Assembly: GCF_024323335.1 (NCBI RefSeq)
Contig: NC_066580.1
Coordinates: 254,672,977 to 254,736,976 of the forward strand
DNA length: 64,000 nt
Source of the DNA: Lathyrus oleraceus
Lineage: Eukaryota; Streptophyta; Magnoliopsida; Fabales; Fabaceae
Direction: 5' to 3'
Made by a program: the position numbers and the translations under genes. Numbering within the stretch: the stretch's first letter is position 1; each line of letters starts with the position of its first letter. This document shows, piece after piece, positions 18,381 to 62,559 of the stretch. The notes below the pieces were generated by a model. That model did not search any database. It was not told the origin of the DNA and saw nothing but the letters and a program-made list of their open reading frames with translations.

Positions 18381-18668
18381 TGCGTAAAGATGTTGGATTG
18401 TGAATGTTGGGCGGAGATTTAGGGAACGGAAGTTGAAGTCAAAGCCGTGTTCTTTTTCTTTTTCTCCGTTTTCGTGTGGGTGAAGATGTTGGATCGTGAA
18501 TGTTGGGTGGATATTTAGGGAACGGAAGTTGAAGTCGAAGTCGTGTTCTCTTTCTTTTTCTCTGTTTCCGTATGCGTGAAGAGATTGGATCGTGAACATT
18601 GGACGCTGACATCTGGAACAGAAATTGAAGTCGAAGTCATATTCTCCATTCTTCCCGTCACAAATTTC
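18381..18668. repeat. Three tandem 96-bp repeats
   Basis: Units start at 18381, 18477 and 18573 ('tgcgtaaagatgttgg', 'tgggtgaagatgttgg', 'tgcgtgaagagattgg'). The period is exactly 96 bp, that is 32 codons. The minus strand therefore stays open from 18599 to 18303 with a repeated FDFNFRSLN..PTFTIQ peptide. The third unit is the most diverged. Without other support I do not call a gene. Confidence 0.85.
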
Positions 18669-19834: not shown

Positions 19835-20186
19835 ACGAGCCTTAAGCAATAGAGAAGAAGTGGGACTGGAGTGTTCCTACGCCCATTCTGAGTAACTTTG
19901 GGTATGGGACGTATGACCCAGCGCTCATCGTATTCGCCTCTATTCATAGACTTTAGCACAATTATACGATTGACAAATCTCTCCCTTCACAAATAAAAAA
20001 CAACAAAAGCAAGGATTACGTCAACAAATTATCAATCATGAATCAAGTTGTACGATACGAGCCTTAAGCAATAGAAAAGGAGTGGGACTGGAGTATTCCT
20101 ACCCCCATTCTAAGTATCTTTAGGTATGGGACGTATGACCCAGCGCTTATCGTATTTACCTCTATTCATAGACTTTAGTGCAATTT
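19835..20186. repeat. Two direct repeats of about 129 bp, 222 bp apart
   Basis: 19835-19963 and 20057-20186 share 'acgagccttaagcaatag', 'gtgggactggagt', 'tatgggacgtatgacccagcgct' and 'tctattcatagactttag'. The intervening 93 bp are less similar. They end 25 bp before the reverse Ogre LTR. Confidence 0.85.
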
Positions 20187-20540
20187 GAATCAAACGATTA
20201 ATAAGGTCTTTGTATCGGGAAATTCATGATCATCAAGCTAATACAAGTTAGAGATCAAATAACAAGATTCGCCACCGCGCTTTTATTGTTTCCAAGGGAA
20301 AAGGGGAAAAGTACGAACAAAACCCAAATAGTAAGAAGTTTTCAAATAAAAACTAATAAAAGTCAGAGATCAAAGGTAAGGGGGTTGGTTACACAGAGGG
20401 AAGGTATTAGCACCCAAAGTGTCCTAGGTACTCCTAGGGAGCCCTTTTTGTGTGCATATGTATTTTGTACAAAGTGATGTTTACAAACAAATAGAATTGG
20501 GGGATGATAAAAGAATTCATTAATTATATTTTTGTGTTTG

Positions 20541-20559
20541 ACAAGACCTTCGGTCTTGT
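20541..20559 (-). other. U5 hairpin with three-nt loop
   Basis: ACAAGACC TTC GGTCTTGT is an 8-bp perfect inverted repeat. It recurs perfectly at 24645-24663. In plus-oriented LTRs (about 4207 and 8824) the arms have one or more mismatches. Sense-strand loop GAA. Confidence 0.55.
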
Positions 20560-23397: not shown

Positions 23398-23405
23398 AAT
23401 TTATA
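23398..23405 (-). promoter_or_regulatory. TATA-like box, reverse LTR
   Basis: The minus strand reads TATAAATT after 'catc', at the equivalent position to the TATA boxes of other Ogre LTRs here. Confidence 0.5.
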
Positions 23406-24312
23406 GATGAATCCATGTGATATTTGCACACTCTTTCCACTTTCTAAAACTGGCAAATGATGATGGAATGGTGCATGGGCGCGCATGGACCCATGAAATG
23501 ATGGTTTGAAGGTACAAATTGAAGATCATATGTTTTGAAGATTGATTGGATTGCAAGGCAACTGAACATTGATGCTTGAAGTTGGATCCATGCCAAATGA
23601 TATCAGCCTGTTTAAGCCATGCGCAACCTATGCATTTCTCATCCAAAAAGAATGAATTTGAGCTCTTTGGAAAGGTGAGACCAAGAGGAATAAGTTTGAT
23701 GTTGAACACTTTTTCATTTGGAGATTGGAACTTGGAGTAATTTGAGGTGGAAGTTTGGAAAAATTTAACATATCAAAAATTTTCTAAGTGTCAAGCCATA
23801 TGTATCAATATTCCACCTTGCTTAACGTTTTATAGGAGCTTCAAATGAGAAAAGTGTCTTCATCAAAGTTGTAGCTCTCTCAAAGACTTTAAAAATGGTC
23901 ACCAATTTCATGTCATTTGGATTTTAAATGATAGAGTTATTCCTTTTTGAAGTTTGGAAAAATCACTTGATCAATGGTATAGGTCAAAAGTGACCTATAA
24001 TGTAGCCTCATATCACATGCTCAAAAAAGTTGAATTAGATCCCACTTCAAACACCAAAGTTAAAGTACACACATTGAATTTGATTTTGAAACTTGGAAAT
24101 CTTTCATCTCATAAAGATTGAGCATGTTATGGCCTTGGGAAGTTGACTTTCAAATTAGGATTTAGACAAAATGACCTATAATGTTTTAACATAGAAAATG
24201 ATTTTCCAAGCAAAACTAGCTCTAGGTCTCAACATTAAAGTTGTTTGGAATGTCATTTAGAGTAAGTTTTCTCTTGGAATCATTTTCATATGGTGAAAAT
24301 TGAATGAGATAG

Positions 24313-27300
24313 TGTAGCGGGAAATTCATGATCATTAAGCTATTGACAAGCTAAAGATCAATTAACAAGAGTCGCCACCACGATTTTATTGTTTCCAAGG
24401 GAAAAGGGAAAAAATGCGAACAAAACCCAAATAGTAAGAAGTTTTCAAATAAAAACTAATAAAAGTCAGAGATCACAGGTAAGGGGGTTGGTTACACAGA
24501 GGGAAGGTGTTAGCACCCAAAGTGTCCTTGGTACTCATAGGGAGCCCTTTTTGTGTGCATATGTATTTTGTACAAAGTGATGTTTACAGACAAATAGAAT
24601 GTGGGGATGAGAAGAGAATTGATTAATTATATTTTTTTTGTTTGACAAGACCTTCGGTCTTGTGCCTACGTACCAAAGTATAAATGAGGGATCAGAACCT
24701 CGTAGTTCGTGCTAGAAATTTCAAAGTGAGTTGGTTGGTTTTAACAAAAATTAAGCTTGAAAGGCACAAAGGCCTGAAAATGGTTTGAATAAGTTAGTTC
24801 TTTTTGGCATTTTTGAAAGTTTAAGTCAAGTATAGTTAAGTTTATTTACAAGTTTGATTTAAGAAAATAAGTTTGAAAATGCAAAGGCATAAGGCCAAAG
24901 TTTCTAATTTTTTTGGAAGTGGTTAAAGTTTAGAATAAAAATAATTCACACAAAGAAGGTTTTAAAAATGGAGGGAGAGATTTTTGAAATTAAATAAATG
25001 GGGATAAGATGAAGAGACTACCCTAGATACAAGAATTTTAAAAGTTTAAAGTTGAAAAGTTCTGACCAAATGGGAGCAATCCAATAGACAAGTATGTCAA
25101 TTTGGACTTTTAAGAATCAAACAACATACAAAACGCACAATTATCAATCTTGAAGAGTAAAGGCATCAAATAAATATGACCTCATCCAAGCTTATCCACT
25201 TCAATGATCTTCTTTAGAATAACCTATGTAGCAGATGAATTCCACAAGTCACAGGTTCAACATAACAACTTAACAAGGATCAATGTTGCAGAGGAATCTT
25301 GAAGGATCTTGAATGATGTATCAGATGAATTCAAGATTGCAAGTTCTTGGTCTTTCAACAAATTGGCATTGGCCAAGTCCATTAGCAAAGGAATGTTGCC
25401 TAAATTCTAAATCCAATTGGAGAGATCAAAACAACAGTCCACTCAAATTGTCTTTTAGGGTTTTTTTTATTATTATGTGCATTAGTGGTCAAAGACCAAA
25501 CCAACAAACAAAGCAACAAAGTATATCACACAATATGATCCAAGTGGACAAAGTGAAAATTGCATAAACATAAATAATTAGAATGATAAGTACAATGACA
25601 AATGATAATAAAAAATAAATTGCATTGAAAGTAAAAGCTTGAAAGTAAAGGTTAATGGTTAGTAAGTTAATGGTTAGTTTTGTTTTGCTTTTTGATGTCA
25701 AGACATTCTTTGGAGAACACTCAACCCACTTTCCACAAGCATGGATCCTTGAACCAAAACATCTTCCAGAGGAAGGAAAGAAGGCCAAGTTTCCACACAA
25801 TACCATGGAAGAGGGGAGACTTACAATCTCACTAACTAGAATGCTTATGCCTTTTATGTCACAAATTTAGCGCTATGTTAAGAAATCGTAATTGGACTTA
25901 TGTAGAAGTCACAACTATTTGAGGTCGAGCAATAGACTTTTGGTGTTAATGCATGTTGGAGACATAGTATTAAGAACTATGCTCATTAAACATACCACAC
26001 ACAAAAAATATGCAAAGGTGGGGCCTAATCTCATCCATACTCATGTTAATCTTTCAATCAACTAGCATTAGGACTTAGAGATGCCATTGGCCAATTGAAA
26101 TGAATGGATGAAGAAGGGGAATTATATGAAGAGGGAAAGGGATGAATGAGATCACAAATTGGTAAAAGGAGGACCTTTACCAAATTAATATTATTCATTC
26201 ATTTTGGGAGATGGAATGTACATTCCATCAATCCCCTAAATCCAATAATATTAACTTGACAAAGTCAAATCAACCTTGACCAAGGCCCAACAACAAATGA
26301 GAAACTCAAATAAGTCAATCCAAATGGTCAACACAATTAAAATGGCATTTATTCAATTAAAAATATTAAAATAATGCATTAAATTCAAATATGTTTTGTC
26401 CAAATCCTAAAATCACATCAAAACACCAAATAAATGGCCATGTGATTTATCATAGGTCAAACAAGGTCAAAGGACCTTGGATAAAAAATTTCATAATTTT
26501 TGGACATTTAAAAATATTTTTAAACAATTAAAAACAAGTGAAAAATCTGTTAATTCATGAAAAATATCAATAGTGATCCAAAAATATGAAAGAGAAAAAT
26601 ATTTGAAATTTTTTAGTGAAAGTCCCATATTTTTTGGGTCAATATTGAATTTAATATGAATTATTGAAAATAATGGAATTAAATAGAAAATCAGAAATTA
26701 CAAAAATATGTGGGCCATCAGATCTCCCTCATTAATTGAGGTGGCAGATCTGATGATCCACAGCGCGTGTTCCACCAACACGTGAGTCAACTGCGTGGCA
26801 AATATGTTAATCAAAAGGAAGGGTTGAGATTATAACGTGGGAAACGGATCACACGGTCTAGACCTAAAACACCTCATCATCGGAGCCAGAGCTCCGGCTG
26901 TCTTCTTCGGCGAGCCTCGTCGGACTGGTCATCAACAACCATCACCAAAATTTCAAACAGGGACATGATTTTAAAGAGAAAACATCATTGAGCACGAATA
27001 TCACTTCCATTTCTTCCAATTCCAACTATATTGAGGGATATGTGGAATTGAAAAATGAGGTTCATGATCTGAGTTGCTTCGATTCATCATCAAAACAACT
27101 CAAACACCTTGCCTGCATTGGTAGGACTTCAGCCAACACAATAATCAAGACAATTGAGCAAGAAACAAGGAGAATCGAAGAGATCAAATTTTCTGCAAAA
27201 TACCTTCAATGGAGGTCTGAGCTTGCTAGATCTTGATTTGAATCGTGCTTTACTTCACTCCAATTGCTTGCAGAAGAGGAATGGAATGGCTTAGAATCAA

Positions 27301-28976
27301 AGGACCCCTGGAAAATTGAATTCCAAAATAGTGGAGATTCAAGCTCAAATTCAACAAAACTTTTCAGGTTTATCCTCTCAATGTGAAGGGTTTTCTAAGG
27401 GGAATCAAAGCTGGCGCAGTGTGTGTGTGTTGATTATAAGCAGTTGAGCTTCAATTTATAGAGGATTCAAGTGTTAATTGCACACTCCATTCAAGTTTCC
27501 AAAATTGGCAAAGTGAGGTAAGAAGTTGCATGGGCGCGCATAGGCCCATCAAATGATTGCTATAAGTCCAAATTTGAAGTTCAGATATGTTGAAGCGGGC
27601 TTGGAATGCAAGGCAATTGAACATTGATACTTGAAGTTTGATCCATGACACATGATACCACCCTATTTAAGCCATGCGTAACCTATGCATTTCTCATCAA
27701 AAATGCATGAATTTTATCTCTTTGGAAAGGTGAGATCATAAGGAATAAGTTTTATGTTGAACACTTTTTCATTTGGAGCTTGAAATTTGGATATATTTGA
27801 GGTGGAAGTTTGGAAAAATTTGACATATTGAAAATTTTCTAAGTGTCAAGCCATATGTCTCAATATTCTACCTTGCTTAACTTTTTATGGGAGCTTCAAA
27901 TGAGAAAAGTGTCTTCACCAAAGTTGTATCTCTCTTAAATACCTTCAAAATGGTCACCAATTTAATGCCATTTGGATTTGAAATGATAGATTTTTGCATT
28001 TTTGAAGTTTGGCAAAATGACTTGATCAATGGTATAGGTCAAAAGTGACCTATAATGTTGCCTCATATCACATGTGCAAAGAAGTTGAATTAGCTCTCAC
28101 TCCAAACATAAAAGTTTAATTAGGCACATTTAATTTGATTGTGAAGCTTGTAAATCTTTCATATCATAAAAATTGAGCAAGTTATGGCCTTGGGAAGTTG
28201 ACTTTCAAATTAGGGTTTAGACAAAATGACCTATAATGTTTCAACATAGAAAGTGATTTTCCAAGCAAAACTAGATCTAGGTCTCAACATAAAAGTTATT
28301 TATAATGTCATTTAGAGTAAGTTTTCTCTAGGAATTATTTTTATATGGTGAAAATTGTAGGAGATAGGGTCTAGGGAGACCCAGTTTTGATCAGATGAAT
28401 CCATCTGGCCAACCACCATCAACCAACTTGCTAATTTCCAATTCTCTTGACTTTCTTGGCTCATGGTAGATCATATATGCATAATATGATGAAATTTGAA
28501 ATGTCCCTTTATAAATTTGATCAATTGATGAGATAGCTTTTTGGAGAAGTTACTCAAGATACCCAATCAAACTAGGGTTTCCAAGGCAAATCACCCTCAA
28601 ACTCTTGAAGCAAACTTGATCGAAATAACATGTAGAAACAATTCGAACTCATACATTATGCTCATAACCATTCTTGAATCAATTCTTGATGGTGCTCTTT
28701 GTTCATGACGGTATCAACCCCTAGATGTGATCAATGAATCAAGGAAATCATGTCCCTACCTACAAAAGAGTTAGATAGATACAAAGACATGTTTTTGGCA
28801 TTTTGGTTAGTGAAATGATAAAATACAAGTATGATATAATCACAAAGTGCTTGATGATCTCTCCCAAAACAAACCCAATGAAAGAGGGGTAAGGAGGATG
28901 CCAAGGTATGATCCTAATGCTTATGCTTATGATGGAATTGCATGAGGGATCTTAGGGTCAAAATTGGGGTCTTACA
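24313..28976 (-). mobile_element. 3' LTR of element B (Ogre, reverse)
   Basis: 4664 bp. The minus strand starts TGTAAGACCCC at 28976 and ends CCCGCTACA at 24313. It is directly preceded on its own strand by the polypurine tract AATAGGGGCAGC (28977-28988), which makes it a 3' LTR. TATA-like TATAAATT is at 27453-27460, the U5 hairpin at 24645-24663 and the PBS-like TGGCGACTC at 24369-24377. The 5 bp left of it (GATAG, 24308-24312) would be one target duplication; its partner is not in the window. Confidence 0.9.
27453..27460 (-). promoter_or_regulatory. TATA-like box of element B LTR
   Basis: The minus strand reads TATAAATT preceded by CTC. The position matches TATA boxes in the other LTRs. 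Confidence 0.55.
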
Positions 28977-35330: not shown

Positions 35331-35745
35331 GAGTACTTTTATCGGGTATTAGGCAAAAAGTAACAACCACAAACAAAGAAGAATATTATCAGTTACTGGG
35401 TAATAAACTCTTAGGGGACCAAAATATCTATCTAGGTAAGAGCTAGAAAGAACAGTCAATCAAGACTCAACCCAATGAGGACATAACTCAAGGGGAGTAA
35501 TTCCATCCAGAAAATTCGCCGGAGAGGAAACTGAAATAACAATCATCCACGAGGAAACAAACTCAGTGGGGAAACAGAGAAAGGTTAAAGTCTTCTCTGC
35601 CTAAGGGGCTAACACTCTACAATTGAAGGAGGACAGACACCAAATTGGATATGGGGATAAAGTATCTCCATAACAGAGAATGAAAATCTCGAACAATCAA
35701 GTATGCAGGATATGTAAAAATCATGAAATTAACCCCTTCTCAATA
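35331..35745 (-). other. 3' UTR of element B, pol-proximal remnant
   Basis: Non-coding. Contains a few more 'ggggaaac' motifs ('ctcagtggggaaacag'), then meets the RT fragment at about 35740. The post-integrase hairpin array seen in C and D is absent, so the deletion that removed pol also removed it. Confidence 0.6.
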
Positions 35746-36063
35746 TCAGAATCCAAACCAGGCATGTCTTGATAGGACCAAGCAAACACATCTGAATACT
35801 CTCGAATAAGATCAATCAACCCCTTCTTAGCATCTGGACACAATCGAGACCCAATCTTGACTTCCTTCACATCATCCTCGAAACCCAAGTTAACAAGCTC
35901 AATCCGCTCTTCAAACGGCTGAATAATCTTCTCATCTTGCTCAAGAAGACGAGACAATACCTCACTCACCTCTACATCACTTTCCTCCTCGGCCTCAAAC
36001 ACAAGGAATTCAAAATTTGGAGAAGGAGAAGGATTATTGTATTCAATGGGGTTAGGAACCAAC
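35721..36063 (-). pseudogene. RT N-terminal fragment after the intron (element B)
   Basis: On the minus strand, from 36063, this is the start of the exon that encodes RT: PNPIEYNNPSPSPNFEFLVFEAEE.., then GLIDLIREYSDVFAWSYQDMPGLDSDIE. It is homologous to 58430-58750 of element D. Similarity ends right after GLDSDIE; the frame then runs a few codons into 3' UTR sequence and stops. RT catalytic domain, RNase H and integrase are all missing, so element B is an internal deletion derivative that could only move by using proteins from another copy. Confidence 0.88.
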
Positions 36064-36315
36064 CTGCATAATGATTTGATATTTTGATTTTAGAGAAGTG
36101 AATTTGTCACCAAATATTATGCAGATGGACAATTATATTGTTTATTTATGTCTTTTGTGATTACCATTTTCAGAATAAAGCAAAAAGTAAAAATAAACAT
36201 CAAAGATGTGGATGACTAGAATTAATTTTATCGATGATCAATTTAAAATGCCCAACAATGTTCACTTCTCCCTTAGGCATAGGAGAAGGATTTTAAAATA
36301 TGAAAAGCAAATTAC
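36064..36315 (-). other. Intron between protease and RT (element B)
   Basis: 252 bp on the minus strand. Donor AA|GTAATT at 36315, acceptor ATTATGCAG|G at 36064. The donor contains the stop (TAA) that ends gag-protease, and splicing would keep the frame into RT. Ogre elements are known to have such a spliced intron. Identical acceptor text is found in element D. An internal hairpin lies 27 nt from the donor. Confidence 0.85.
36265..36288 (-). other. Intronic hairpin near 5' splice site (element B)
   Basis: On the minus strand CTTCTCC (36288-36282) and GGAGAAG (36271-36265) enclose the 10-nt loop TATGCCTAAG. Element D has the same stem with loop CATGCCAAAA at 58187-58210. Confidence 0.65.
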
Positions 36316-39300
36316 TTAGATCGATGCAAAATAACAAGAATATCAACAGCAGTCCAATTGTTGCATGTATGTTCATGCGTCACAAAGTTGGTGTAGTCTT
36401 CCTTTTCATTATCCTCTAGCATAGAAGCCAAGTGTTGTTCATTCCCATTAATGAACCCTCCGCTACGGAAGCTGAGTTGCATCTCTTCTGATCTAACGAT
36501 TGACGAACCCTTCTGCAACCCCAAACCTGTTCTTCCCTTGTTCTCGGCGACCTCTACCACGCGCCCCCACTGATCAACAGGACCTTCTTCAACAATCTTT
36601 TGTGCATCTTTCGAAGAGGACATAGGTGCCCCAATTCTCTTCTCAGCAGCAATAGACAAATCTTGGAACGGCGTCCCAACCTCATCCTCAGCTTCTACAT
36701 ATGAAAAAGATGACAGATGGCTGACCAACGGCGCTTTCTCACCTCCCACAATCACCAACTTGCCATTCTTGAAAAATTTGAGCTTCTGGTGCAGAGTAGA
36801 AGTAATAGCTCCTGCTTCATGAATCCACGGCCTTCCCAACAAACAGTTGAAGGGTGGGTGAATGTCCATTACCTGGAAAGTAATCTGAAAATCACTCGGA
36901 CCTATCTTCACTGGAAGGTCCACTTCTCCAATGACCGTCTTGTGCGAGCCATCAAAGGCTTTGACAATTACTCCACTATACCTCATGGGAGCTCCTTGGT
37001 ACGATAACTTTGACAATGTTGATTTTGGAAGCACATTGATTGACGACCCAGTACCAACTAGCACGTTTGACAAAGCATCTTCTTTGCAATTCATCAAAAT
37101 ATGCAAAGCCAGATTGTGATTTCTTCCCTCCTCAGAGAGTTCTTCATCGCAAAAGTTCAAATTGTTGCATGAAGTGATGTTAGCTACAATGTGATCAAAT
37201 TGAGCCACAGTAACATATTGCTCCACGTATGCCTGTTCAAGAACTCTCTGGAGTGCTTCTCTGTGCGCTTCAGAATTTAAAAGCAGAGACAGCACGGAAA
37301 TCTTAGAGGGAGTCTGAAGCAACTGCTTAACCACATTGAATTCACTCATCTTGATCAGTCGGAGTACCTCATCATCATCACTATTGGCTTTTAAATTGCT
37401 GGATTCACCAGACTTATCTTTTGAACATCCCACAGGATCTACCACAGGCACCTCTGCCTTCTTACCAACGATCAACTCTTTCTTATTCTCTGGCCCAAAA
37501 ACTCGACCACTATGGGTTACCTTCGTAACATCTGCAATGCTCACTACTAAACTTGTCGTAGGCAACGGAACCTCTTGACCTTTCTCAATCATCTTAGCAT
37601 TGTATTGATACGGTACAGCCTTATCAGATGCATACGGGATTGGGCCCGCCAACCGTATTACCAACGGTGAAACTGATCTATTGCTGACGTTCTTGTTGCT
37701 ATCATATTGCATCACCAACCGCTCTGGTTGCTTAAAAACGGGAACAATGACATTAACATCATCATCTTCATGACGGGATTGAGAAATCTGGATCATGCCT
37801 TCATCCATCAGATGTTGGATGTCCCTTTTCACCACAACACACCCTCTTGGGTTCACACTACAAATATCACAACCTTCGTGATCATGTTCACATTCACTCA
37901 CCATACAGATGTCCTTGTGTATCTGCGCCAAGGATCCATGAATGAAACGCACATCAAAAACTTTGTATTCACCTGGACAGCCGTCCACCATATTCAATGA
38001 GGTATTCCCATGAGTGGGCAAGGGATTAGCTTTCATATTAAGCGCGTGGTCTTCAAAAGACACCATGCCACTCTTCATAAGCTTTTGCACCTCATATTTC
38101 AGCGGATAACAATTCTCAATATCGTGCCTAGGTGCACCTTAGTGGAAAGCACAACGAAGCTCGGGTTTATGCCACCAGGGAAGTGGTTCTGGTATCTGTG
38201 GTGGATTCCTCGGTTGGATAAAATTCTTGAGGACTAAAGACGGGTACAGCTCTGCGTACGACATAGGAATCGGGTCGAAAGATACCTTCTTCCTCTCGAA
38301 GCTCTGTTGCTGGTGATGATTGTTGTTGGAATTGTTATTGTTGTAGGTGTTTGTTCTTTGTTGCGGTTGTTGTTGTTGACGTTGATTTTAATGTTGATGT
38401 TGTTGTTGTTGTGGAATTGGTGTTGTTGACTGATTCGAAAACACTAGAATAATAGAAGATACTTGATGATGATGATGTTGACGGGGTGGTAAATTCCTTC
38501 TTGCTTGAGGCCTCATTTTCCTTCCACTGCTTGCTGCATTTGTTTCATTCTCTTTCCTCTTGCTAAAATTGCTCCCATACTTCTTACTAGTTGACGCCTC
38601 TTCTTTCGATAATCGTCCTTCACGGACCCTTTCTTCAAGTCTCATCCCCATGTTTACCATTTTGGTAAAGTCACTAGGGGCACTGGCAATCATACGTTCA
38701 TAAAAAATGAACTCAGGGTTTTGAGAAAGATTTTCGTCATCTCCTTCTCCTCCAAAGGAGGAGTAATCTGGGCAGCCAACTCCCTCCAACGCTGGGCGTA
38801 CTCTTTAAATGTCTCCTTGTCTTTCTGAGACATGGACCTCAGCTGGTCCCTATCTGGCGCCATATGCATGTTGTATTTATACTGTTTCACGAAAGCCTTT
38901 CCTAGATCATTGAAAGTGCAGATGCTTTCACTACCTAGCCCCATATACCAACGGAGTGCAGCACCTGTCAGGCTATTCTGGAAATAGTGAATCAGTAGTT
39001 GATCATTATCTGTCTGGGTTGACATCTTGCGGGCATACATCACAAGATGACTGAGTGGACACGAGTTTCCCTTATACTTCTCAAATTCAAGCACTTTGAA
39101 TTTGACTGGGATTTTCACGTTGGGTACTAAGCACAGTTCAGCAGCACTCTTCCCAAACAGAGCTTTGCCTCTCAGCGTTTTTAATTCCTTGCGCAGCTCA
39201 AGGAATTGATCCTTCAACTCATCCATCTTCTCATAAACGTCTGGGCCCTCAGATGGCTCGGAATGATAGATGGTGTCTTCTACACGCGGCAAAGTATGCA

Positions 39301-39604
39301 CAACGGGAGGTGGCATAGACATGATCGGGCTAGATGCTGACATGGAAGCAAAAGTGGGAGCGAAACCCTCAGGCACAAAATTGGGTGGCATTCCCCAAAG
39401 GAACCTAGCAGGCAGATTCGGAGCGAAGTGGGTGGTGGCAGTAGGCACTATAGAGGTAACCACTTCAGAGATGACAGTCCTCGCGGGAGGAGTTGCAGGA
39501 GTTGGAGAAGCTTGGCTCTGGGCAGCAAGAACTGACTCCATCATGGCAATCATTCGGGCAATCTCCTCCTTCAAATCTTGGTTCTCTTACTCAAGGTGTT
39601 CCAT
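36316..39604 (-). pseudogene. Ogre gag-protease (element B), damaged
   Basis: Gag starts MEHLE at 39604. A Pro/Ala-rich linker is followed by the Gag core (LRWYMGLGSESICTFNDLGKAF, QKDKETFKEYAQRWRELAAQI), a Gln/His-rich linker, a zinc-knuckle remnant (FH..GAPRHDIENCYPL), a Cys/His segment (CEHDHEGCDICSVNPRGC) and the aspartic protease. Damage: TAA at 39587-39589, a frameshift near 38705 in a T-run, TAA at 38388-38390 and TAA at 38139-38141. The protease signature reads LVGTGSS: the catalytic Asp is replaced by Gly at 37053-37055, so the enzyme would be inactive. The frame from 38090 to 36312 is otherwise open and ends inside the intron donor. Confidence 0.9.
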
Positions 39605-39909
39605 GATCTTTGAAAGATTGACTCGAGTGTTGTACTGGTGAATCAGCTTGGCTAAAGCACAGAAGAACACTGATCAGACACCTGGCAAAAACCTGCTTAT
39701 GCAAATGATGCATGAAATGCAATGCTTGATTATTTTTATTTCCAAGGAACTTACTATATTATTTGCAAATATATAAAAACTGAAATGACAATTGCAATAA
39801 TTTGATATGACCAAAAATCTCTTTTCATTTATATAAATCGGAAGGATTACACTGAGTATAATTTCAGAAACCAAAATAAAAGATACAAGAGAATAGGAGA
39901 CTAGTCATC
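39605..39909 (-). other. ORF1-gag spacer (element B)
   Basis: Non-coding. It carries 'ttgcataagcagg' on the minus strand, as in the other elements, and AT-rich text matching 54577-54875. Confidence 0.5.
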
Positions 39910-41133
39910 CTAAGGATCCCTAACAACAGTGTCAGAAGATCTGGCTGAAGGCTCATACTTCCTTCGAATGCGACGAATCTCGGTCTCAAAAGAAGCCTTC
40001 ATCTGAGTCTTCTCGAGGACAAGCTGGTCAACAATCTTCTTCCAAGCAATGGAAGGCTGAGGCATCCTAGAAGATGAAACCTCTGGCTCTCTCTGTCTCT
40101 TCGTCACTCGGTCTTCAAGTAGCTCAATCAGTGCATCTTTTCCCTTAGACTCCAACTGCAACTCTTCATGCTTCTTGCTCAAAGCATGGAAACGCTCTTC
40201 CCACATATCCTTCTCTTGCTTCATCTTGATGAGCACGTCTTCCAACTCCTTTATATCTTGGTTAGGGAGAGTTAATGGCTCAACCACAACCATAAACATA
40301 GGTCTCTCACAAGGATAAGTCATCTTCAACTCCATAGCTCTCTTTTTCACCCAAAGAGTGTAAGCTTCCAAAGCTACACAATTGCACGGACCAAGCTCGG
40401 ATCTTCCTTTCCTATGCACATTATGCCGAGCATGCACAATCTTCTGCTTCAAATGTTGGGGATCTTTACCCTCTTGATAGAAAAGACCTTCTAACAACAT
40501 GTTATTAGGTTTGTCTCTCAAGGGGAACCCAAGTTGACGACGAGGCAAAGCAGGGTTGTAGTTAATTCCTCCTTGTGTACCAATGAGAGGCACATTAGAG
40601 AATTCACCACAACTATCAATAATCTCCAAACTTCTTAAGCATGGATTATACCAAACTATATCATCATTAGTGAGAGACATAAGTCTCTGAGACCACCTTA
40701 GACATTGTTTATTCTCCATAAAAGCAGGCGTCTGAGGCAAGTGCGAAATAAACCACTTGCACAGGAGAGGAGTGCAACAGACAATCGTTCCACCGCCTTT
40801 AGAATTCCTTAGATGCAAAGAGAAATACATATCACCCAACAAAGTAGGCACAGGATTCCCAATCAAGAAAAGTCTAATGGCGTTAACATCAATAAAACCG
40901 TCAATGTTAGGGAACAAAGTTAATCCAGAAATGAGCAACAAAAAGATATCTTCAAAAGCATCTACACTACCAGCTTGAGCAAAAGTGGTAGCTTCCTTAA
41001 TGAGGAAAACAGATGGCAATCCAAATAACCCTCATTTCTTCACCCAATGAGCCTATATCTCAGACTTCTTCAAGTTAAGAGATTCAGCAATAATACTAGA
41101 TCGGGGAATCTCCTTAAATCCACTAAAAGGTAC
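39910..41133 (-). pseudogene. Ogre ORF1 (element B), 5' truncated
   Basis: On the minus strand, conserved ORF1 text from VPFSG (about 41133) through LFPNIDGFIDVNAIRLF, NPVPTLLGDMYFSLHLRNSKGGGTIVCC and QLGFPLRDK to the coiled-coil C terminus (LEDVLIKMKQEKDMWEERFHAL..KHEELQLES). From 41019 to 39910 the frame is fully open (369 codons). Upstream it has TAG at 41053-41055 and TGA at 41032-41034. The first third of ORF1, the leader, PBS and 5' LTR are missing because of an inversion-type junction at about 41134. Confidence 0.88.
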
Positions 41134-41146
41134 TCTACTAGAAACA

Positions 41147-42517
41147 ATGGTAGAGAGGATCATAGAACTTCACCAATACACTCATCATGTGCCACACGTT
41201 GCTGTGAATCGACTCGAGAGGCCTGTGTATGTGTTTGCAGCCAAGTCTGTTGTTGATGAGAAGTCGTGGTACTATGATATTAAGAATTTCCTCAAAAGCC
41301 AGGAGTATCCTGAGGGAGCGTCAAAGAGTGACAAGAAGACCCTGAGAAGGCTAGCTGGAAGCTTTTATTTGAATCAGGATGATGTGTTGTACAAGAGGAA
41401 CATTGACATGGTTCTACTCAGATGCGTGGATAGACACGAAGCAGACATGTTGATGCAAGAAGTACACGAGGGGTCTTTCGGTACCCATGCTGGTGGTCAT
41501 GCAATGGCCAAGAAGTTGTTGAGAGCCGGTTATTACTGGATAACCATGGAATCCGATTGTTTCAAATACGCTCGGAAGTGCCACAAATGTCAGATCTATG
41601 GAGATAAGGTGCATGTACCACCAAGCCCTCTGAATGTCATGAATTCGCCTTGGCCATTCGCGATGTGGGGCATCGATATGATTAGGAAGATTGAACCTAT
41701 TGCTTCTAATGGACATCGCTTCATCCTGGTCGCGATTGATTACTTCACCAAGTAGGTGGAAGCAGCTTCCTATGCTAATGTTACCAAGCAAGTGGTTGCC
41801 CGATTCATCAAGAAGGAGATTATCTGTCGTTATGGGGTTCCTGAGAGAATCATCACTGACAATGGTTCGAATCTTAATAACAAGATGATGAAAGAGCTTT
41901 GCAAAGACTTTAAGATCGAGCATCACAATTCTTCTCCTTACAGACCGAAGATGAATGGCGCTGTAGAGGCGGCAAACAAGAACATTAAGAAGATTGTGCA
42001 AAAGATGATCGTGACGTACAAGGATTGGCATGAGATGTTGCCTTTCGCTTTGCATGGGTACCGTACCTCAGTACGTACGTCGACCGGGGCAACCCCTTAC
42101 TCCCTTGTGTATGGTATGGAAGCAGTCCTACATGTTGAAGTGGAGATTCCTTCTCTGAGAGTCCTGCTGGATGTCAAGCTTGACGAAGCTGAATGGATTC
42201 AGACAAGGTTCAATGAGTTGAGTCTTATTGAGGAAAAGCGGTTAGCAGCTGTGTGCCATGGGCAACTGTATCAAAGAAGGATGAAGAAGGCCTTTGATCA
42301 GAAAGTGCGTCCTCGAAGCTATCAGACAGGTGATTTGGTTTTGAAGAGGATCCTTCCTCCCGGTACAGATAACAGGGGCAAGTGGACTCCGAATTATGAA
42401 GGTTCATATGTTGTTAAAAAGGTTTTCTCTGGTGGAGCCTTGATGCTGACAACTATGGACGGTGAAGATTTTCCATCCCCTGTGAACTCAGATGTAGTCA
42501 AAAAATACTTCGCATAA
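41147..42517 (+). pseudogene. Ogre integrase (element C), one stop
   Basis: Starts near the RNase H-integrase linker (RLERPVYVFAAKS..), then the H2C2 zinc-binding domain (HEADMLMQEVHEGSFGTHAGGH..CHKCQIY), the catalytic core with Asp at 41675 (WGIDMI), Asp at 41858 (ITDNGSN) and Glu at 41966 (VEAANKN), which is the DX35E spacing, and a C-terminal domain ending VVKKYFA at 42517. A single in-frame TAG at 41753-41755 replaces Trp (FTK-stop-VEA). Everything upstream (RNase H, RT, gag) is missing. The fragment joins element B's ORF1 head to head at about 41134. Confidence 0.9.
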
Positions 42518-42526
42518 ATTGACCCG

Positions 42527-42728
42527 CTGGACGAAAAGAATAAAAGAGTCCAGGCAAAAAAGGGCATCCCGGCGAACCAAGAAAAAAAAGAAAAAAGGTT
42601 CAGGCAAAAGTTAGGGATAAAGAATAAAAAAAAGATGTACACCCGGTAAGTCGAAAACCTGAAAAGGCGGCTTAGGCAAAAATGGGTATCCCGGTGGATT
42701 GAAAACCTGAAAAGGCGATCCAGGCAAA
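42527..42728 (+). other. Post-integrase tandem hairpin array (element C)
   Basis: Four short stem-loops start 10 nt after the stop codon: CTGGAC/GTCCAG (42527-42532, 42548-42553), GAACC/GGTTC (42574-42578, 42597-42601), TAAGTCG/CGGCTTA (42647-42653, 42668-42674) and TGGATTG/CGATCCA (42695-42701, 42716-42722). Loops are A-rich; the last two contain AAAACCTGAAAAGG with an inner CC/GG pair. Each 3' arm is followed by, or merges into, GGCAAA(A), and each 5' arm is preceded by CCCG. Stem sequences differ, but pairing is kept, with G-U pairs in two stems. Confidence 0.75.
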
Positions 42729-43329
42729 TGAGGAATTAAAGCGAAGACTACAGTCTGATTTATCTGTACTTCATCGCGCTTCAGTGTCTACCATCTTGAA
42801 GGATATGACCGGTCCAATCATTCTTCTCAGAAAGCAAGGAATTTGGGGGAAATTGAGGATATACGAGTCATAACAGAATTGGAAAATAGTGGATGCCGTG
42901 TTCACATTGCCAATAGGATAGTTTATTCCTTTTTTTTGTGCAATTACCTCTTCCTAGGAATTGCTTCCTGATGTACTTTGCCTATTACAGGCCATTTTCA
43001 ATCAATAAAAATCGTTATTCAGTCAAATTGCTCTCTTGTTTTTATTTTACTGTTTTGTTTGCAAAAACGTCCGAATTTTTGATAAACATTGCATCTAAAA
43101 AACATGAAGGATAGACAATAACGTGCAGAAAGATAAAACATTTGAAAATCATTTTGAATGTTTGAGTACACTTGGGAGTATCTTGTCCATACAATCCCCT
43201 AGGGCATGTATGTCTTGCTGTTTTGCGGATCACTATCTTTGATTGCGGGCTGAAGTAGATAAGCCACAGTTTGTTCAAAGATGTTTCAGCACTGTCCAGT
43301 AGTGTGAGAAGTTGGGTTGTCCAAAGCAA
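42729..43329 (+). other. 3' UTR of element C, proximal part
   Basis: No coding signal and no clear repeat. Moderately AT-rich; it carries 'caatcaataaaaatcg' (43000-43015), a possible poly(A) signal. Confidence 0.45.
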
Positions 43330-44180: not shown

Positions 44181-44318
44181 CCGACAAGCGTCTGCCCAGT
44201 TTTGACATATGTAGATGTCATCCTTGCAATACCAGTTGGTGTCGTGTTGATCCCCGGGTGGGTCGTCCTTTTTTGGTGTTAGTAGACATCATCTTTCGAT
44301 GTCCGTAACATCGAGTTT

Positions 44319-44816
44319 CTTCCCCATTCATCCATTGATGTTTGGTCATGGTTTCTTTCTTCCCATTCATCCGTTGATGTCTAGTCGTGGCTTCTTTATT
44401 CCCATTCGTCGTGAGACGTCTAGTCGTGGTTTCTCTTCCCATTCATCTGTTGATGTCTGGTCGTGGTTTCTTTCTTCCCATTCATCCGTTGATATCTGGT
44501 CGTGGTTTCTTTCTTCCCATTCATCCGTTAATGTCTGGTCGTGGTTTCTCTTCCCATTCATCTGTTGATGTCTGGTCGTGGTTTCTTTCTTCCCATTCAT
44601 CCTTTGATGTCTGGTCGTGGTTTCTTTCTTCCCATTCATCCTTTGATGTCTGGTCGTGGTTTCTTTCTTCCCATTCATCTGTTGATGTCTGGTCGTGGTT
44701 TCTTTCTTCCCATTCATCCGTTGATGTCTGGTCGTGGTTTCTTTCTTCCCATTCATCCGTTGATGTCTGGTCGTGGTTTCTTTCTGCCCATTCATCTGTT
44801 GATGTTTGGTCGTGGT
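44319..44816. repeat. 39-bp minisatellite in element C 3' UTR
   Basis: About 13 units of 'ttcccattcatc..gttgatg tctggtcgtggtttctttc', with starts at 44436, 44475, 44514, 44551, 44590 and then every 39 bp to 44785; one unit is 37 bp. The first three units are diverged. Because 39 is a multiple of 3, long repetitive open frames appear on both strands. I regard them as by-products. Confidence 0.93.
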
Positions 44817-46191
44817 TGAAGATGAATTGCCATCCAAGGCGCAGCGGAATTTAAAAATTTCTCCATTTAGTGATCCTTACGAATGGGCATGATCAGTGAT
44901 AGAATCGTTACCTCTTGTGGCGATTCAAACCTTTGGTGCAGATCTCTGATAATGATCAAAACCTTTGATACAGATCCACGGGGCGATCACGAACTTTGAA
45001 CGATGACAACGTCTCTACTCAGTCCACATGAACGGATTCCTTCAATCGCAGTGCTAGCTGTTATGAATGAAGGCTTTGAGTGAGAGAAAGAGGGAAACAA
45101 AATTCCAAGTCTCTAATTGAATTTCTGTCTGAGTGGAATGGAGTTACAATGCTTCTACCCAAGGGGTTCTATTTATAGAACCACTTGTGTGGGCTTCAAG
45201 CCAAAAAGCCCACTTAAGTGCATTTTGGACCATATCTCATAATATGCCAAAATCACTTAAGTATTTGGTACCTTACCATATTTCGTCTCCCACTTAAGTG
45301 CACCGTACCTTACGGTGTTCCTTAATTATTCTATCTCTCATCAATCCGTCCTTTGTGTGTGACCCTATAGGTTTTCGCGGCGTTGACAATTATATTAAAT
45401 CACGCATTTAACATAATAAATAGTGAGCGGTATCTAGCAACACATCACTGCTACCCAAGTCACGAAAATGTCATGTGATCTGACAAAACCTCCTGTGATA
45501 ATAATTATGTGTATAATTACCCCTTTGCCCTTATGTCTATATTGAACACAAGGTATAGACCGTGTCACCCTTGTCCAGTTCAATATTGGGCCCATAGACA
45601 TTTATCCTGTTAAGCAGGATTGACAAATTCCATCTAGGACACTCATGTCCCTCAGCATGCTTCGTGGAGTACTCATCAACTGTCTTTATGGTCATCCAGT
45701 TACGGATGACGTTGGATCAGTAATAAGGCACTCAACTCTACATCTAGGATCCATAGTGGTTTCAGGTCGAAGAGTGGTATACACTATTATCACCATGAGA
45801 ATAACTTATGACACTTTGCATAACTTTCTATATAGTATTCTCATAGCGGGTCAATCCGGTATAAATATTACTCCTAATATTCATACCTATGTTTAAGACT
45901 TGATAACTCTTTATCCATGATCCATGAGATGTGATCATCAGTCTACAAACATAATAGTCTTAATGCTTTAATGTTATCCCACTTCACATTAAAGCTCGAC
46001 TACGGATACTTTAAGAACAGTGCCCTTATGTTTAATGTGTTCTCATGATTAAGTCACACTTAATACATTAAACGGACTATCTATCCTAGGGACTTTATTA
46101 ATCAACCATAATAAAGAAAATGCCTTTTATTATTAATAAATAATTCGATACAAGTACCAAAAAATATTGGCCTCTAGGGCTTACACCAACA
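44817..46191 (-). mobile_element. Solo LTR, probably Ty1/copia (Angela-like)
   Basis: 1375 bp flanked by a perfect 5-bp duplication GTGGT (44812-44816 and 46192-46196). The minus strand starts TGTTGGTGTAAGCCCTAGAG and ends CATCTTCA. The start resembles Angela-type Ty1/copia LTRs as I remember them (TGTTGG.. with CCCTAGAGGC). No internal region, so it is a solo LTR. It sits in the last unit of the 39-bp minisatellite. Confidence 0.88.
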
Positions 46192-58161: not shown

Positions 58162-58429
58162 GTAATGGTTCACTTTGTTCAAAACCCTTCTCCCATGCCA
58201 AAAGGAGAAGTGATGACATTGTTAGCAACATTTAATACAATGATATTTCATTCAATTAATGCATTGTTAAACATTTGTTTTTCCATTTGTTTTCACTTTT
58301 TGCTTTTTGCATGAAGTCAGTGATCACAAAAAACCATAAAAAACAAGAATAAAAGCAATCTTTTTCATCTGCATAATGATTTGTTTGTTTAAATTCTAAA
58401 GTTTTTCATTAACCAAAATCATTATGCAG
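58162..58429 (+). other. Intron between protease and RT (element D)
   Basis: 268 bp: donor GA|GTAATG at 58162, acceptor ATTATGCAG|G ending at 58429. The stop TAA at 58163-58165 lies in the donor, so unspliced RNA ends after protease. Removing the intron keeps the frame into RT. The element B intron has the same layout, stop and acceptor. Confidence 0.87.
58187..58210 (+). other. Intronic hairpin near 5' splice site (element D)
   Basis: CTTCTCC (58187-58193), loop CATGCCAAAA, GGAGAAG (58204-58210), starting 25 nt inside the intron. Same stem and a similar loop in element B. Confidence 0.65.
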
Positions 58430-61400
58430 GTTGATTCTAAAACCCATTGAACATAATGATCCAACGCCATCTCCCAATTTTGAGTTCCCTGTATTTGAGG
58501 CAGAGGAAGATGATGTTGAAGAGATTCCTGATGAGATTACCCGTCTCCTTGAGCACGAGAAGAAAATCATTCAGCCGCATCTCGAAGATCTGGAAACAGT
58601 CAACTTGGGGTCTGAGGATTGTGTTCGTATGGTGAAGATTGGGGCACTTCTTGAAGAGTCTGTCAAGAAGGGGTTGACCAGTTTGCTACGAGAATATTCC
58701 GATATCTTTGCTTGGTCATATGAAGACATGCCGGGTCTAGATACAGATATTGTGCAACATTTCCTGCCTTTGAAGCCTGAGTGCGTGCCTGTGAAGCAGA
58801 AGCTCAGAAGAACTCATCCAGATATGGCAGTGAAGATCAAAGAGGAAGTTCAGAAGCAAATTGATGCGGGGTTTCTGGTGACTTCTACATATCCTCAATG
58901 GGTGGCCAACATTGTGCCTGTGCCTAAGAAGGACGGAAAAGTCCGTATGTGTGTTGATTACATAGATTTGAATAAAGCTAGTCCAAAAGATGATTTTCCT
59001 TTACCACGCATTGATATGTTGGTAGACAATACAGCTAAATTCAAAGTCTTTTATGGACGGATTTTCCGGATATAATCAAATCAAGATGGCACCCGAGGAT
59101 ATGGAGAAGATAACATTCATCACACCTTGGGGAACATTCTGTTATCGAGTGATGCCCTTCGGTTTGAAGAACGCCGGAGCCACGTATCAACGAGCTATGA
59201 CTACCTTGTTTCATGATATGATGCACAAGGAGATAGAGGTCTATGTTGATGATATGATTGCTAAGTCCCGAACAGGAGTTGAACATGTTGAGCATTTGTT
59301 GAAGCTTTTTCAGCGTCTGAGGAAGTTTAGGCTTCGTCTGAATCCGAACAAATGTACATTTGGAGTCCGTTCCGGCAAGTTGTTGGGTTTTGTTGTTAGC
59401 GAGAGAGGTATTGAAGTTGATCCTGCAAAGGTCAAAGCAATACAAGAGATGCCTGCACCCAAAACTGAGAAGCAAGTCCGAGGTTTTCTTGGTCGCTTGA
59501 ACTACATTTCCAGATTTATATCCCACATGACTGCCACATGTGCGCCGATATTCAAGCTCCTTCGGAAAGATCAGTCTCATGATTGGACCGAGGATTGCCA
59601 GAAAGCTTTCGACAGTATCAAAGAGTATCTGTCTGAACCTCTGATCTTGTCTCCGCCTGTAGAAGGAAGACCTCTGATTATGTATTTGACTGTTCTTGAA
59701 GACTCGATGGGTTGTGTACTCGGTCAACAAGATGAATCAGGGAAGAAAGAATCTGCTATCTACTACCTCAGTAAGAAGTTTACTGATTGTGAGGCTCGAT
59801 ACTCTATGCTTGAGAGGACGTGATGTGCTTTGGCTTGGGCTGCTAAGCGTTTGCGTCAGTACATGATAAATCATACAACTTGGTTGATATCCAGAATGGA
59901 TCCAATCAAGTACATCTTCGAGAAGCCTGCTTTAACCGGGAGGATTGCCCGTTGGCAGATGTTGTTGTCTAAGTATGATATCGAGTATCGAGCTCAGAAA
60001 GCTATCAAAGGTAGTATCTTGGCTGACCATTTAGCGCACCAGCCGATTGAAGATCATCAGTTTGTTCAGTACGACTTCCCAGATGAGGAGATTCTGTATT
60101 TGAAAATGAAAGATTGTGATGAGCCTACACTGGATGAAGGTCCGAAACCTGGTTCCAGATGGACGATGGTGTTTGATGGCGCTGTGAATCAGTATGGAAA
60201 TGGAATTGGGGCAGTAATCATCACTCCCCATGGTACGCATATTCCGTTTACAGCAAGGCTAACTTTCAAATGCACAAATAATATGGCTGAGTACGAAGCC
60301 TGTATTATGGGATTGGAAGAATGTATTGATTTGAGGATCAAGCATCTTGACGTGTATGGTGATTCGGCCCTAGTTGTTAATCAGATCAAGGGTGAATGGG
60401 AGACGAATCAGCCTGGTCTCATTCCGTATAGAGATTATGCGAGGAGGATTTCAACATTCTTTACTGAAGTTGACTTTCATCATATTCCTCGAGAGGATAA
60501 TCGGATGGTCGATGCTCTTGCTACGCTTGCTTTAATGATTGTGGTCAAGTATTGGAACGAAGTTCCCAACATTGCTGTGATGCGCTTGGATAGACCAACT
60601 CACGTGTTTGCAGTGGAAGAAGTGAATGATGACAAGCCTTGGTATTTTGATGTCAAGAATTTCCTCCAGAACCAGGTCTACCCGCCTGGAGCATCTGTGA
60701 AAGATAGGAAAACTTTGAGAAGGTTGTCAGGCAGTTTCTACCTCAGTGGTGAAGTGCTGTATAAGAGAAATTTTGACATGGTTTTGTTCAGATGCGTGGA
60801 TAGACACGAAGCAAACCTGTTGATGACTGAGGTCCATGGGGGTTCGTTTGGTACTCATTCCAATGGACATGCCATGGCTAGAAAGATGTTGAGAGCAGGC
60901 TACTATTGGCTGACAATGGAGTCTGACTGCTGCAAATATGTGAAGAAATGCCACAAGTGTCAGATTTATGCGGATAAGATTCATATTCCTCCGACACTTC
61001 TGAATGTGATTTCATCACCATGGCCTTTCTCTATTTGGGGAATTGACATGATTGGCATGATTGAACCGAAGGCGTCCAATGGACACAGGTTTATTCTCGT
61101 ATGAATTGATTACTTCACCAAATGGGTTGAAGCCGCTTCGTACGGGAATATGACCAGGCAGGTGGTCGTGAAGTTTATCAAGAATCAGCTGATTTGCCGT
61201 TATGGTGTGCCAGATAAGATCATTACTGATAATGGATCTAATCTCAATAATAAGATGATGGATGAGTTGTACGCTGAATTCAAGATTGCACACCATAATT
61301 CTTCTCCCTACAGACCTAAGATGAATGGGGTTGTTGAAGCTGCTAATAAGAATATCAAGAAGATTATCCAGAAGATGACAGTTACGTACAAAGATTGGCA

Positions 61401-61887
61401 TGAGATGATGCCATTTGCTTTGCATGGATATCGTACATCTGTCCGCACTTCAACAGGGGCAACCCCTTTCTCTCTTGTTTATGGCATGGAGGTTGTTCTC
61501 CCAGTAGAGGTGGAGATCCCATAAATGAGAGTCTTGATGGAAGCCAAGTTGACTGATGCTGAATGGATTCAGAGTCGTTATGACCAGTTGAATTTGATTG
61601 AAGAGAAGCGATTGACTGCCATGTGCCGTGGTCAGTTGTATCAGCAGAGGATGAAGAAAGCATTTGATAAGAAGGTCAAGCCTCGGGTGTTCCGAGAAGG
61701 TGACCTCGTGCTCAAGAAAGTCTTGTCTTTCGCGCCCGATTCCAGGGGCAAGTGGACTCCAAACTATGAGGGTCCATATGTTGTTAAGAGAGCCTTTTCA
61801 GGCGGAGCTTTGATGCTTACAACAATGGATGGGGAGGATTTCACTCATCCTGTGAATTCAGATGCAGTCAAGAAATACTTTGCCTAA
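58430..61887 (+). pseudogene. Ogre RT-RNase H-integrase (element D), damaged
   Basis: Domains in order: linker (PNFEFPVFEAEED), RT (VRMCVDYIDLNKASPKDDFPLPR, MDGFSGYNQIKM, VMPFGLKNAGATYQR, YVDD at 59242-59253), RNase H (Asp 60175 in FDGA, Glu 60289 in MAEYEA, Asp 60361 in YGDSA), integrase H2C2 zinc domain (HEANLLM..GTHSNGH..CHKCQIY), core Asp 61045, Asp 61228, Glu 61336 (DX35E), C-terminal domain ending AVKKYFA. Damage: a frameshift near 59045 just before the FMDGFSGYNQI motif, TGA 59821-59823, TGA 61102-61104 and TAA 61522-61524. All catalytic residues listed are intact, so decay is recent or mild. Confidence 0.92.
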
Positions 61888-61917
61888 AAAAAGTATAAAG
61901 AAAAACAGAATAGCTCG

Positions 61918-62074
61918 CTAAGTTGAAAACCCGAAAGGGCGGCTTAGGCAAAAATGAGCGTCTCGGTGGAGAACCCGAAAAGGTGATCCAGGCAAAAGTT
62001 AGAGACATAAAAAAAAAGAGAATATTTGTATCCCGCTAGATTGAGTACCTCACCCTGGGGCAATCTAGGCAAAA
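61918..62074 (+). other. Post-integrase tandem hairpin array (element D)
   Basis: Three stem-loops: CTAAGTTG/CGGCTTAG (61918-61925, 61940-61947) with inner CCC-GAAA-GGG; TGGA/TCCA (61967-61970, 61987-61990) with inner ACC/GGT separated by tandem GA mismatches; CTAGATTG/CAATCTAG (62036-62043, 62061-62068). Each is followed by GGCAAAA. The first two correspond to the last two of element C. Confidence 0.75.
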
Positions 62075-62559
62075 ATTAGGGATTTGGCAAGTAACTGCAT
62101 CCGGATAAGACTTTCTGTTCCACAACCGTCTTTTCGTCAGAGATTCTCGATTCGTCGTCAGCTGAAGCTTCGAATACATCGAGATTCAAATTGGTAGAGA
62201 AAGGATCATTATGTTCAATGTAGCCCTCTTCCAATATATATCACTGATTTCAAATTTGTACAGATCTATGGAGTCTTGCCATTTGCAGGCTACCATTCCA
62301 TCAAATCAATTTGGGCTTTTATCCAATTATTTGCATTCTTATTTGTTTCAATTCAACAAATGTTTTGCATGTTTTAATTGATAAAATGTCATTATTTTAA
62401 ACAAATAAAAATTTTCAAATTGTTGTTTTAAACAAAGTGAACGTTCACAATGATGAAAGGATACTTAAGAATCTCTCAGTGCTCTCCCAAGGGTGGCATA
62501 ATTTCCAACAGGTAAGACATTTGTTCATATTCCTGGTTTGGCTGTATCCTCTTTATCCT
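62075..62559 (+). other. 3' UTR of element D, proximal part
   Basis: No gene and no clear repeat. AT-rich from 62330 to 62430. Confidence 0.45.

Follow-up and report, generated by a model that had tools for sequence, protein, structure and literature searches.

Retroviral packaging and dimerisation signals comprise several small-loop hairpins carried on the genomic RNA. Among LTR elements, the CTE of MPMV and SRV, the RTE of IAP and the MTE of MusD are structured cis-acting RNAs that serve the unspliced genomic RNA, the CTE being a stem-loop of 150-175 nt with two internal loops (excerpt of PMC7551171). The RSE of Rous sarcoma virus lies directly after the stop codon of gag (excerpt of PMC2925335). 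In plants, elements of the Ogre/Tat group contain hypervariable tandem repeats in their 3' UTRs, which act as satellite sources and vary in both sequence and length (excerpt of PMC7004042). Ogre elements form a large part of some Fabeae genomes, amounting to 45% of that of Lathyrus sativus (same excerpt), and the export, sorting and packaging of plant LTR-element RNA are hardly known (excerpt of PMC12786077, for export only).

Here we describe arrays of hairpins that follow the integrase (INT) stop codon of Ogre elements, starting from a window of 64,000 nt of the pea genome. Like the CTE, RTE and MTE, the array would be a structured RNA of an LTR element; unlike them, it is divided into three to four separate modules with mostly GNRA loops and it occurs in plants, the comparison at the level of sequence having been made through Rfam alone. 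The array shares with the RSE a position directly after a stop codon and about the same length, whereas the RSE follows gag, with no array of like modules described in its abstract, and the Ogre array follows INT. As in the retroviral packaging and dimerisation signals, several hairpins with small loops occur together, in this case at the 3' rather than the 5' position. The hypervariable repeats lie in the same part of the element and also consist of repeat units; in contrast to these, the array keeps its structure across five families.

A search of the whole window against Rfam gave no match at the gathering threshold, and within 42400-43100 one match (E 1.4), which lies outside the array. 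Hairpins after the Ogre INT go unmentioned in the titles and abstract openings surveyed, and an earlier mention is possible, for example in a 2009 study of the Ogre 3' UTR. A text search of PMC11963269, which deals with the region between pol and the 3' LTR of Retand, likewise gave no occurrence of hairpin, stem-loop or secondary structure. A compact, repeated RNA module of this kind would provide a handle on the way in which the RNA of plant LTR elements is exported, sorted and packaged.

Hairpin arrays in elements C and D

Seven hairpins follow INT in the window, four in element C (42521-42736, outer arms included) and three in element D (61913-62083), and all of them were recovered from the sequence of the two elements at the places given in the earlier note. 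Their features are as follows:

42515..42517, + strand: stop codon of the INT frame, element C
42521..42566, + strand: unit C1 (odd), P2 CTGGAC/GTCCAG, A-rich loop; possible P1 CCC/GGG (probability about 0.08)
42566..42618, + strand: unit C2 (even), P2 GAACC/GGTTC, A-rich loop; possible P1 ATCCC/GGGAT (probability 0.18)
42641..42687, + strand: unit C3 (odd), P1 ACCC/GGGT, P2 TAAGTCG/CGGCTTA, AAAA bulge, P3 CCT/AGG, GAAA loop
42688..42736, + strand: unit C4 (even), P2 TGGATTG/CGATCCA, AAAA bulge, P3 CCT/AGG, GAAA loop; P1 arms ATCCC/GGAAT in the window, with GGGAT in related copies
61885..61887, + strand: stop codon ending the INT-coding region, element D
61913..61959, + strand: unit D1 (odd), P1 GCTC/GAGC, P2 CTAAGTTG/CGGCTTAG, AAAA bulge, P3 CCC/GGG, GAAA loop
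61960..62006, + strand: unit D2 (even), P1 GTCTC/GAGAC, P2 TGGA/TCCA, G-A/A-G mismatches, then ACC/GGT
62030..62083, + strand: unit D3, P1 ATCCC/GGGAT, P2 CTAGATTG/CAATCTAG, P3 CCTC/GGGG

The flanks beginning with CCCG do not stay fixed, contrary to the earlier note: their CCC provides the 5' side of a further helix, P1, which the note had overlooked, which may enclose the unit and in which the partners vary. Tandem Repeats Finder, at a score of 100, called no head-to-tail array at 42521-42736 or 61913-62083. In element C, a tandem repeat of 39 or 115 bp (12.9 or 4.3 copies) is found at 44315-44817, 1.6 kb past the hairpins; it is probably a repeat of the known, hypervariable type of the Ogre 3' UTR.

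Architecture of the module

In the typical module, P1 is followed by G N, P2, an AAAA bulge, P3 and a GNRA loop, and the 3' half continues with P3', P2', (G)GCAAAA and P1'. Three to four such modules make up an array, usually in the form of two odd-even pairs with an A-rich linker between them. In the sequence of the pairs C3/C4, D1/D2, E1/E2, F1/F2, F3/F4, G1/G2 and G3/G4 (families E to G are introduced below), P1' of the odd unit abuts P1 of the even unit with no gap, so that the helices could stack. Exceptions to this spacing are C1/C2, with one base between the units, and E3/E4, with several.

The variants of P2 include TAAGTTG/CGGCTTA, TGGATTG/CGATCCA, TGAGTTG/CGGCTCA, TAAATCG/CGATTTA, TGGATCG/CGATCCA, TGGACTG/CGGTCCA and more, all read at a fixed distance from GCAAA without use of pairing, AAAA and a loop of the form G..A being required of each unit. 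Units C1, C2, D2, D3 and E4, which are irregular, keep P2 and have a different top. The letters of the helices drift with pairing kept, and the bulge, the loop and GGCAAAA look nearly constant. For AAAA and GGCAAAA this constancy was judged on 21 units, which had themselves been located with the help of GCAAA. Taken together, the unpaired sites are more variable within families than the paired ones. Several of the sets used here were selected partly through the AAAA, GNRA or GGCAAAA motifs, and the loops were therefore assessed in a set left unfiltered for the loop, in which P2 and P3 are formed: 171 of its 174 units have a GNRA loop (155 GAAA and 16 GCAA). The tetraloop, which the earlier note had remarked upon once, in CCC-GAAA-GGG, is the rule in regular units.

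Pair probabilities of P2 are 0.9 or more at most positions, and those of P1 depend on the family. All three units form P1 in the best fold of the D stretch (GCTC/GAGC, GTCTC/GAGAC and ATCCC/GGGAT), and C3 alone does so in that of the C stretch (ACCC/GGGT), in which arms also pair across units (GGG of C1 with CCC of C2, and GGGAT of C2 with ATCCC of C4). Other families contribute the partners AGCC/GGCT and GTCCC/GGGGC. The probabilities for P1 are about 0.8-0.98 in D and 0.6-0.95 in one stretch each of F (L103) and G (L095). In E (L085), they are about 0.87 in E1 and E2 and 0.02 or less in E3 and E4. In C and in a second C copy (L002) they alike span 0-0.72, and in a shortened copy (L060, see below) 0-0.74. 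Two of these values, those of window unit C4 and of the middle L060 unit, carry little weight, as the P1 register used for them is off by one. Comparison of the orthologous units C3 and D1 reveals two double changes in P1 and one in P3 (T-A to C-G), all with pairing kept. Two further double changes that keep pairing separate P1 of C4, as represented by the family copies, from that of its ortholog D2. P1 covaries across families, and the case for it is a comparative one, as single-sequence folding predicts P1 weakly in C.

The host elements

Element D contains ORF1 (DUF7745) and gag, together with domains for protease, RNase H, a second RNase H-like fold and the zinc-binding part of INT, and its frame at 59824-61104 includes RT_RNaseH, RVT_3 and Integrase_H2C2 in this order. 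Two hallmarks of the Ogre lineage (Tat, Ty3/gypsy) are therefore present, i.e., a second RNase H-like domain between RT-RNase H and INT, and ORF1 before gag. The third, a gap between the pro and RT frames, was seen by eye. By its domain content, scanned outside the RT frame, rather than by a tree, element D is assigned to Ogre. For element C, the INT end alone lies within the window. The following feature of element D was delimited by eye:

58162..58429, + strand: likely partially spliced pro-RT intron, 268 nt; donor GTAATG overlapping the pro stop, acceptor ATTATGCAG

Such an intron between pro and RT, spliced from only part of the transcripts, has been described for Ogre, and two separated ORFs are named for Ogre and Bianca (excerpt of PMC6317226).

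Distribution of the array

Searches with INT queries from other plants returned 182527, 201431 and 194764 candidates, of which 137, 107 and 100, respectively, were scored. From these, 40 post-INT stretches (20, 3 and 17 per search) were picked by hand for variety, blind to the stretch itself, and compared with a unit model (R1) built from the seven window units. The array is present in all 40 of these INT-selected stretches, with a total of 149 R1 units and at least three in each stretch (four in 29 of them, three in 11). Its first unit starts 3-71 nt past the INT stop, with a median of 21, the distance for one stretch (L104) being that of its second unit. The stretches were sorted by eye into five families: C (4 stretches), D (9), E (14), F (4) and G (9). 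Two members of family F, L102 and L104, have three units and look like unit deletions, which would mean that the unit number can change by recombination.

Among five random stretches of 10 kb, one (L060) has an array, composed of three units. It belongs to an Ogre copy on the minus strand (about 9340-9360 of the reverse complement) in which INT is missing up to P1 of unit 2, and which is a shortened derivative that retained three hairpins. Over all 64 sources, comprising 284357 bases, R1 gave 212 matches, including seven in the window and three in L060; the remaining ones all occupy, by eye, the array position of C and D copies.

In a further family of the same genome, INT shares 33-36% identity with that of C and the opposite strand bears a TRP28 frame, by which the family is taken as Retand (excerpt of PMC11963269). 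In two copies of this one Retand-type family, no unit was found in the 1.05 and 0.92 kb after INT, so that, as far as this family goes, the array is not common to all Tat elements, and R1 gave a single match, at chance level (10.8 bits, E 0.13), around three TRP28 hits. The TRP28 frame, of 355 codons, occurs in many copies among 150 scored places in the pea genome, which suggests an abundant Retand family.

No relatives were found among viral contigs, searched by pattern and by INT protein, or among genome contigs, where one 27% match in a bacterial MAG was set aside, and none was found among plasmids. One translated array matched short metagenome proteins (10 and 29 matches, the 29 including the query) that bear no organism names. 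All 18 of those inspected carry translated units, including RWIENPKGRSRQKLGI or near variants, and the array is thus not confined to the pea assembly. Entries with units like RWIENPKGRSRQKLGI are probably not real proteins. An open frame runs across the units because odd and even units are 48 nt apart, and the short ORFs across hairpin units are probably not genes.

Evidence for selection on the structure

The pairing in the seven window units was assessed by swapping arms between units. The true combination pairs 38 of 42 positions in P2 (permutation mean 31.7, with 4 of 5040 permutations as good) and 30 of 35 in P1 (24.6, with 18 of 5040 as good). For the five non-orthologous units, 1 of 120 permutations is as good in P2 and 12 of 120 in P1. 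Folding energy was set aside as too weak a line of evidence: z lies between -1.0 and -3.9 in single units and is -1.15 and -1.91 in the two arrays.

In a set of 21 units, seven of them the window units from which P2 and P3 were defined, 95.2% of the 207 P2/P3 cells are paired, compared to 84.3% upon shuffling (0 of 500 as high) and 24-50% when the helices are slid by 1-3 columns. The same set has 35 cells changed on both sides (14.8 shuffled; 0 of 500) and a covariation score of 0.546 (0.337 shuffled; 0 of 500). Pairs with both-side change number six, weakly above the shuffles (42 of 500), and the 13 further pair types show no excess, all 500 shuffles being as high. Among 134 distinct units, 1723 of 1941 P1-P3 cells are paired, the outermost P1 position being paired in 66 of the 134.

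Events were further counted on a FastTree tree of the units with parsimony states; the units are short and partly paralogous, so the counts are rough. Between 9 and 14 double changes preserve pairing (mean 11.8), compared to a null mean of 1.45 and a null maximum of 6 (0 of 500). The fraction of changes that keep pairing is 0.559 versus 0.430 in the null, 6 of 500 nulls reaching the lowest observed value. Changes that break pairing (65-71) also lie above their null mean of 44 (maximum 72), the overall amount of change being higher in paired columns. For inner branches, the tally is about 43 changes that preserve pairing and 23 that disrupt it, and at the tips the corresponding numbers are about 43 and 44.

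An R-scape-like tree null, computed with our own script on 77 distinct regular units, gave no column pair with E below 0.05, and the four top-scoring pairs are all structural (P2-2, P2-3, P2-4 and P3-3; E 1.1 to 2.0). From this set, 1173 GCAAA sites lacking AAAA or GNRA at the fixed distance were dropped, plus 53 others; most of the dropped GCAAA sites should be non-units, and the irregular C1, C2, D2, D3 and E4 should be among them. L001 and L009, which represent window places, were dropped, and the unit-tree count re-added the irregular types. Compensatory change no greater than phylogeny would produce, which the earlier note had regarded as evidence against selection, is therefore what the individual column pairs show (best E 1.1), and not what the directional tree count shows (0 of 500).

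These results bear on the possibility that chance or shared ancestry suffices, the units descending from a single hairpin too recently for pairing to have been lost. The tree-null test without a significant pair, the number of broken changes on the tree and the D copies described below, with 25 broken and 11 kept single changes and no doubles, are in line with this explanation. The double changes beyond the null maximum, the higher kept fraction, the arm-swap test and the pair counts relative to shuffles and slides argue against it, and we consider it very improbable.

The array identity between representatives of the five families averages 0.61 (0.34 when shuffled), compared to 0.36 for the next stretch (0.29 when shuffled). 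Arrays of C and D are 0.30 identical, no better than shuffled, a value impaired by their difference in unit number.

The type of imperfect pair is informative as to the molecule involved. G-T cells number 149 and A-C cells 61, and Watson-Crick pairs change to G-U more often than to A-C, about 15 versus 4 times on inner branches and 35 versus 19 times on tip branches. This excess points to the sense RNA, since a DNA palindrome or an antisense RNA would not favour G-U. A feature of the DNA itself was considered in this regard, i.e., inverted repeats kept as cruciforms, or strand-transfer repeats free of selection on RNA, akin to the hypervariable Ogre 3' UTR. Such an origin would agree with the variable number of units and the deletion-like L102 and L104, and tandem repeats are known to originate from the 3' UTRs of Ogre elements (excerpt of PMC7004042). 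Both biases towards G-U are nevertheless unpredicted by a DNA palindrome, the predominance of GNRA loops also speaks against a DNA-level origin, and the tandem repeat of element C forms a stretch separate from the hairpins, so that we give this explanation very little credence.

The proposal of the earlier note, a selected structure in Ogre RNA, is supported by both-side changes with pairing kept, by the excess of G-U over A-C and by the presence of the array in 40 of 40 stretches. Comparison at the level of sequence shows that all five pea Ogre families sampled carry, past their INT stop, an RNA element that is conserved and of sense orientation.

Further copies of families C and D

Additional copies were collected from the assembly (3.80 Gb in 1550 contigs), where 40 of 3087 first-look candidates were scored for the C query and 40 of 2968 for the D query, ranked by their likeness to the window. 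In the 28 C copies, including that of the window, the change per site and copy is 0.0186 at paired and 0.0377 at unpaired sites. Of the single changes, 22 leave pairing intact and 10 disrupt it, and nine cells have a double change from T-A to C-G, in P3 of C3 (six copies) and of C4 (three copies). Paired sites also change less in the 30 D copies, again including that of the window (0.0133 versus 0.0296), where pairing survives 11 of the single changes and is lost through 25, of which 11 fall in P3 of D2, and where there are no double changes. Loss of pairing in other copies, a further finding that the earlier note would have held against selection, was thus seen in part, prevailing in the D copies and not in the C copies. 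The test is weak either way, because loss of pairs is expected after insertion and the copies were ranked by likeness to the window.

Possible functions of the array

As the pro-RT intron is spliced from only part of the transcripts, we infer that the genomic RNA must exit the nucleus unspliced. The array may be a repeated protein-binding module, similar to the CTE or RTE, for the nuclear exit of intron-containing Ogre RNA, a tentative reading to which we assign a probability of about 0.38. The constant unpaired parts (AAAA bulge, GNRA loop and GGCAAAA) would serve as the contact surface, several copies of the module would give cooperative binding, and full-length RNA would thereby leave the nucleus despite its partially spliced intron. 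Consistent with this reading are the structured RNA downstream of pol, as judged from prediction and comparison, and the lack of an array after INT in both Retand-type copies. Precedents for export in LTR elements include the MPMV CTE, the IAP RTE and the MusD MTE (excerpts of PMC7551171 and PMC12786077), and Cer1 is exported by means of its own protein, CERV (excerpt of PMC10309623).

Several observations weigh against export. An element of the 3' UTR sits on spliced and unspliced RNA alike, and the contrast between Ogre and Retand is a single one that fits other Ogre traits as well, such as ORF1 (DUF7745). The tree null yields no significant column pair, P1 is weakly predicted for E3, E4 and the majority of C units, and the D copies break more pairs (25) than they keep (11). 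To our knowledge, plants have no clear NXF1 counterpart. The export of plant LTR-retrotransposon RNA has, according to the excerpt of PMC12786077, not been studied directly. In a variant of the export reading, which we regard as quite unlikely, an Ogre-encoded protein, e.g., that of ORF1 (DUF7745), would read the modules cooperatively in the manner of Rev/RRE or CERV and switch intron-containing RNA between export or packaging and splicing.

Alternatively, the array could act in packaging or dimerisation, whereby Gag or the ORF1 protein would bind the modules and bring full-length RNA into particles, or the GNRA loops would dock with another module or another molecule. A set of similar modules that bear GNRA loops and A-rich bulges would suit multivalent binding, and tandem hairpins occur in retroviral packaging signals. 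The latter, however, are mostly located near the 5' end, and the array would be present on spliced RNA as well. With regard to dimerisation, neither GAAA nor GCAA is complementary to itself, and a kissing dimer formed through these loops is therefore not expected from their sequence. We view a role of this kind as somewhat unlikely.

The array could also be an RSE-like stability or termination element that shields an mRNA with a long 3' UTR from nonsense-mediated decay, or that acts on termination. Its location 3-71 nt past the stop codon in all 40 stretches is reminiscent of the RSE, which is found immediately after the gag stop and has a minimal form of similar length, 155 nt (excerpt of PMC2925335). 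Conversely, a structure built just after the stop abolished the decay resistance conferred by one carmovirus 3' UTR in a plant assay, where a lack of structure past the stop was protective, an objection tempered by the protection that a recoding structure after a stop provided in the same study (excerpt of PMC6277124). This function appears unlikely to us. Nuclear export is the function that we would place highest, ahead of packaging or dimerisation, with protection against decay at the stop in third place.

Surroundings of the elements

Element C starts abruptly inside the RNase H/INT region at 41145-41174, where it adjoins a minus-strand Ogre fragment extending from ORF1 to RT (35727-41145). 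Judging from the sequence, 41145-41174 is a nested or rearranged junction. Elsewhere in the window, at 1-7636 and 13637-28671, there are repeat units about 4 to 8 kb apart; the right-hand part has three copies in direct orientation, and the copies of the left-hand part are inverted.
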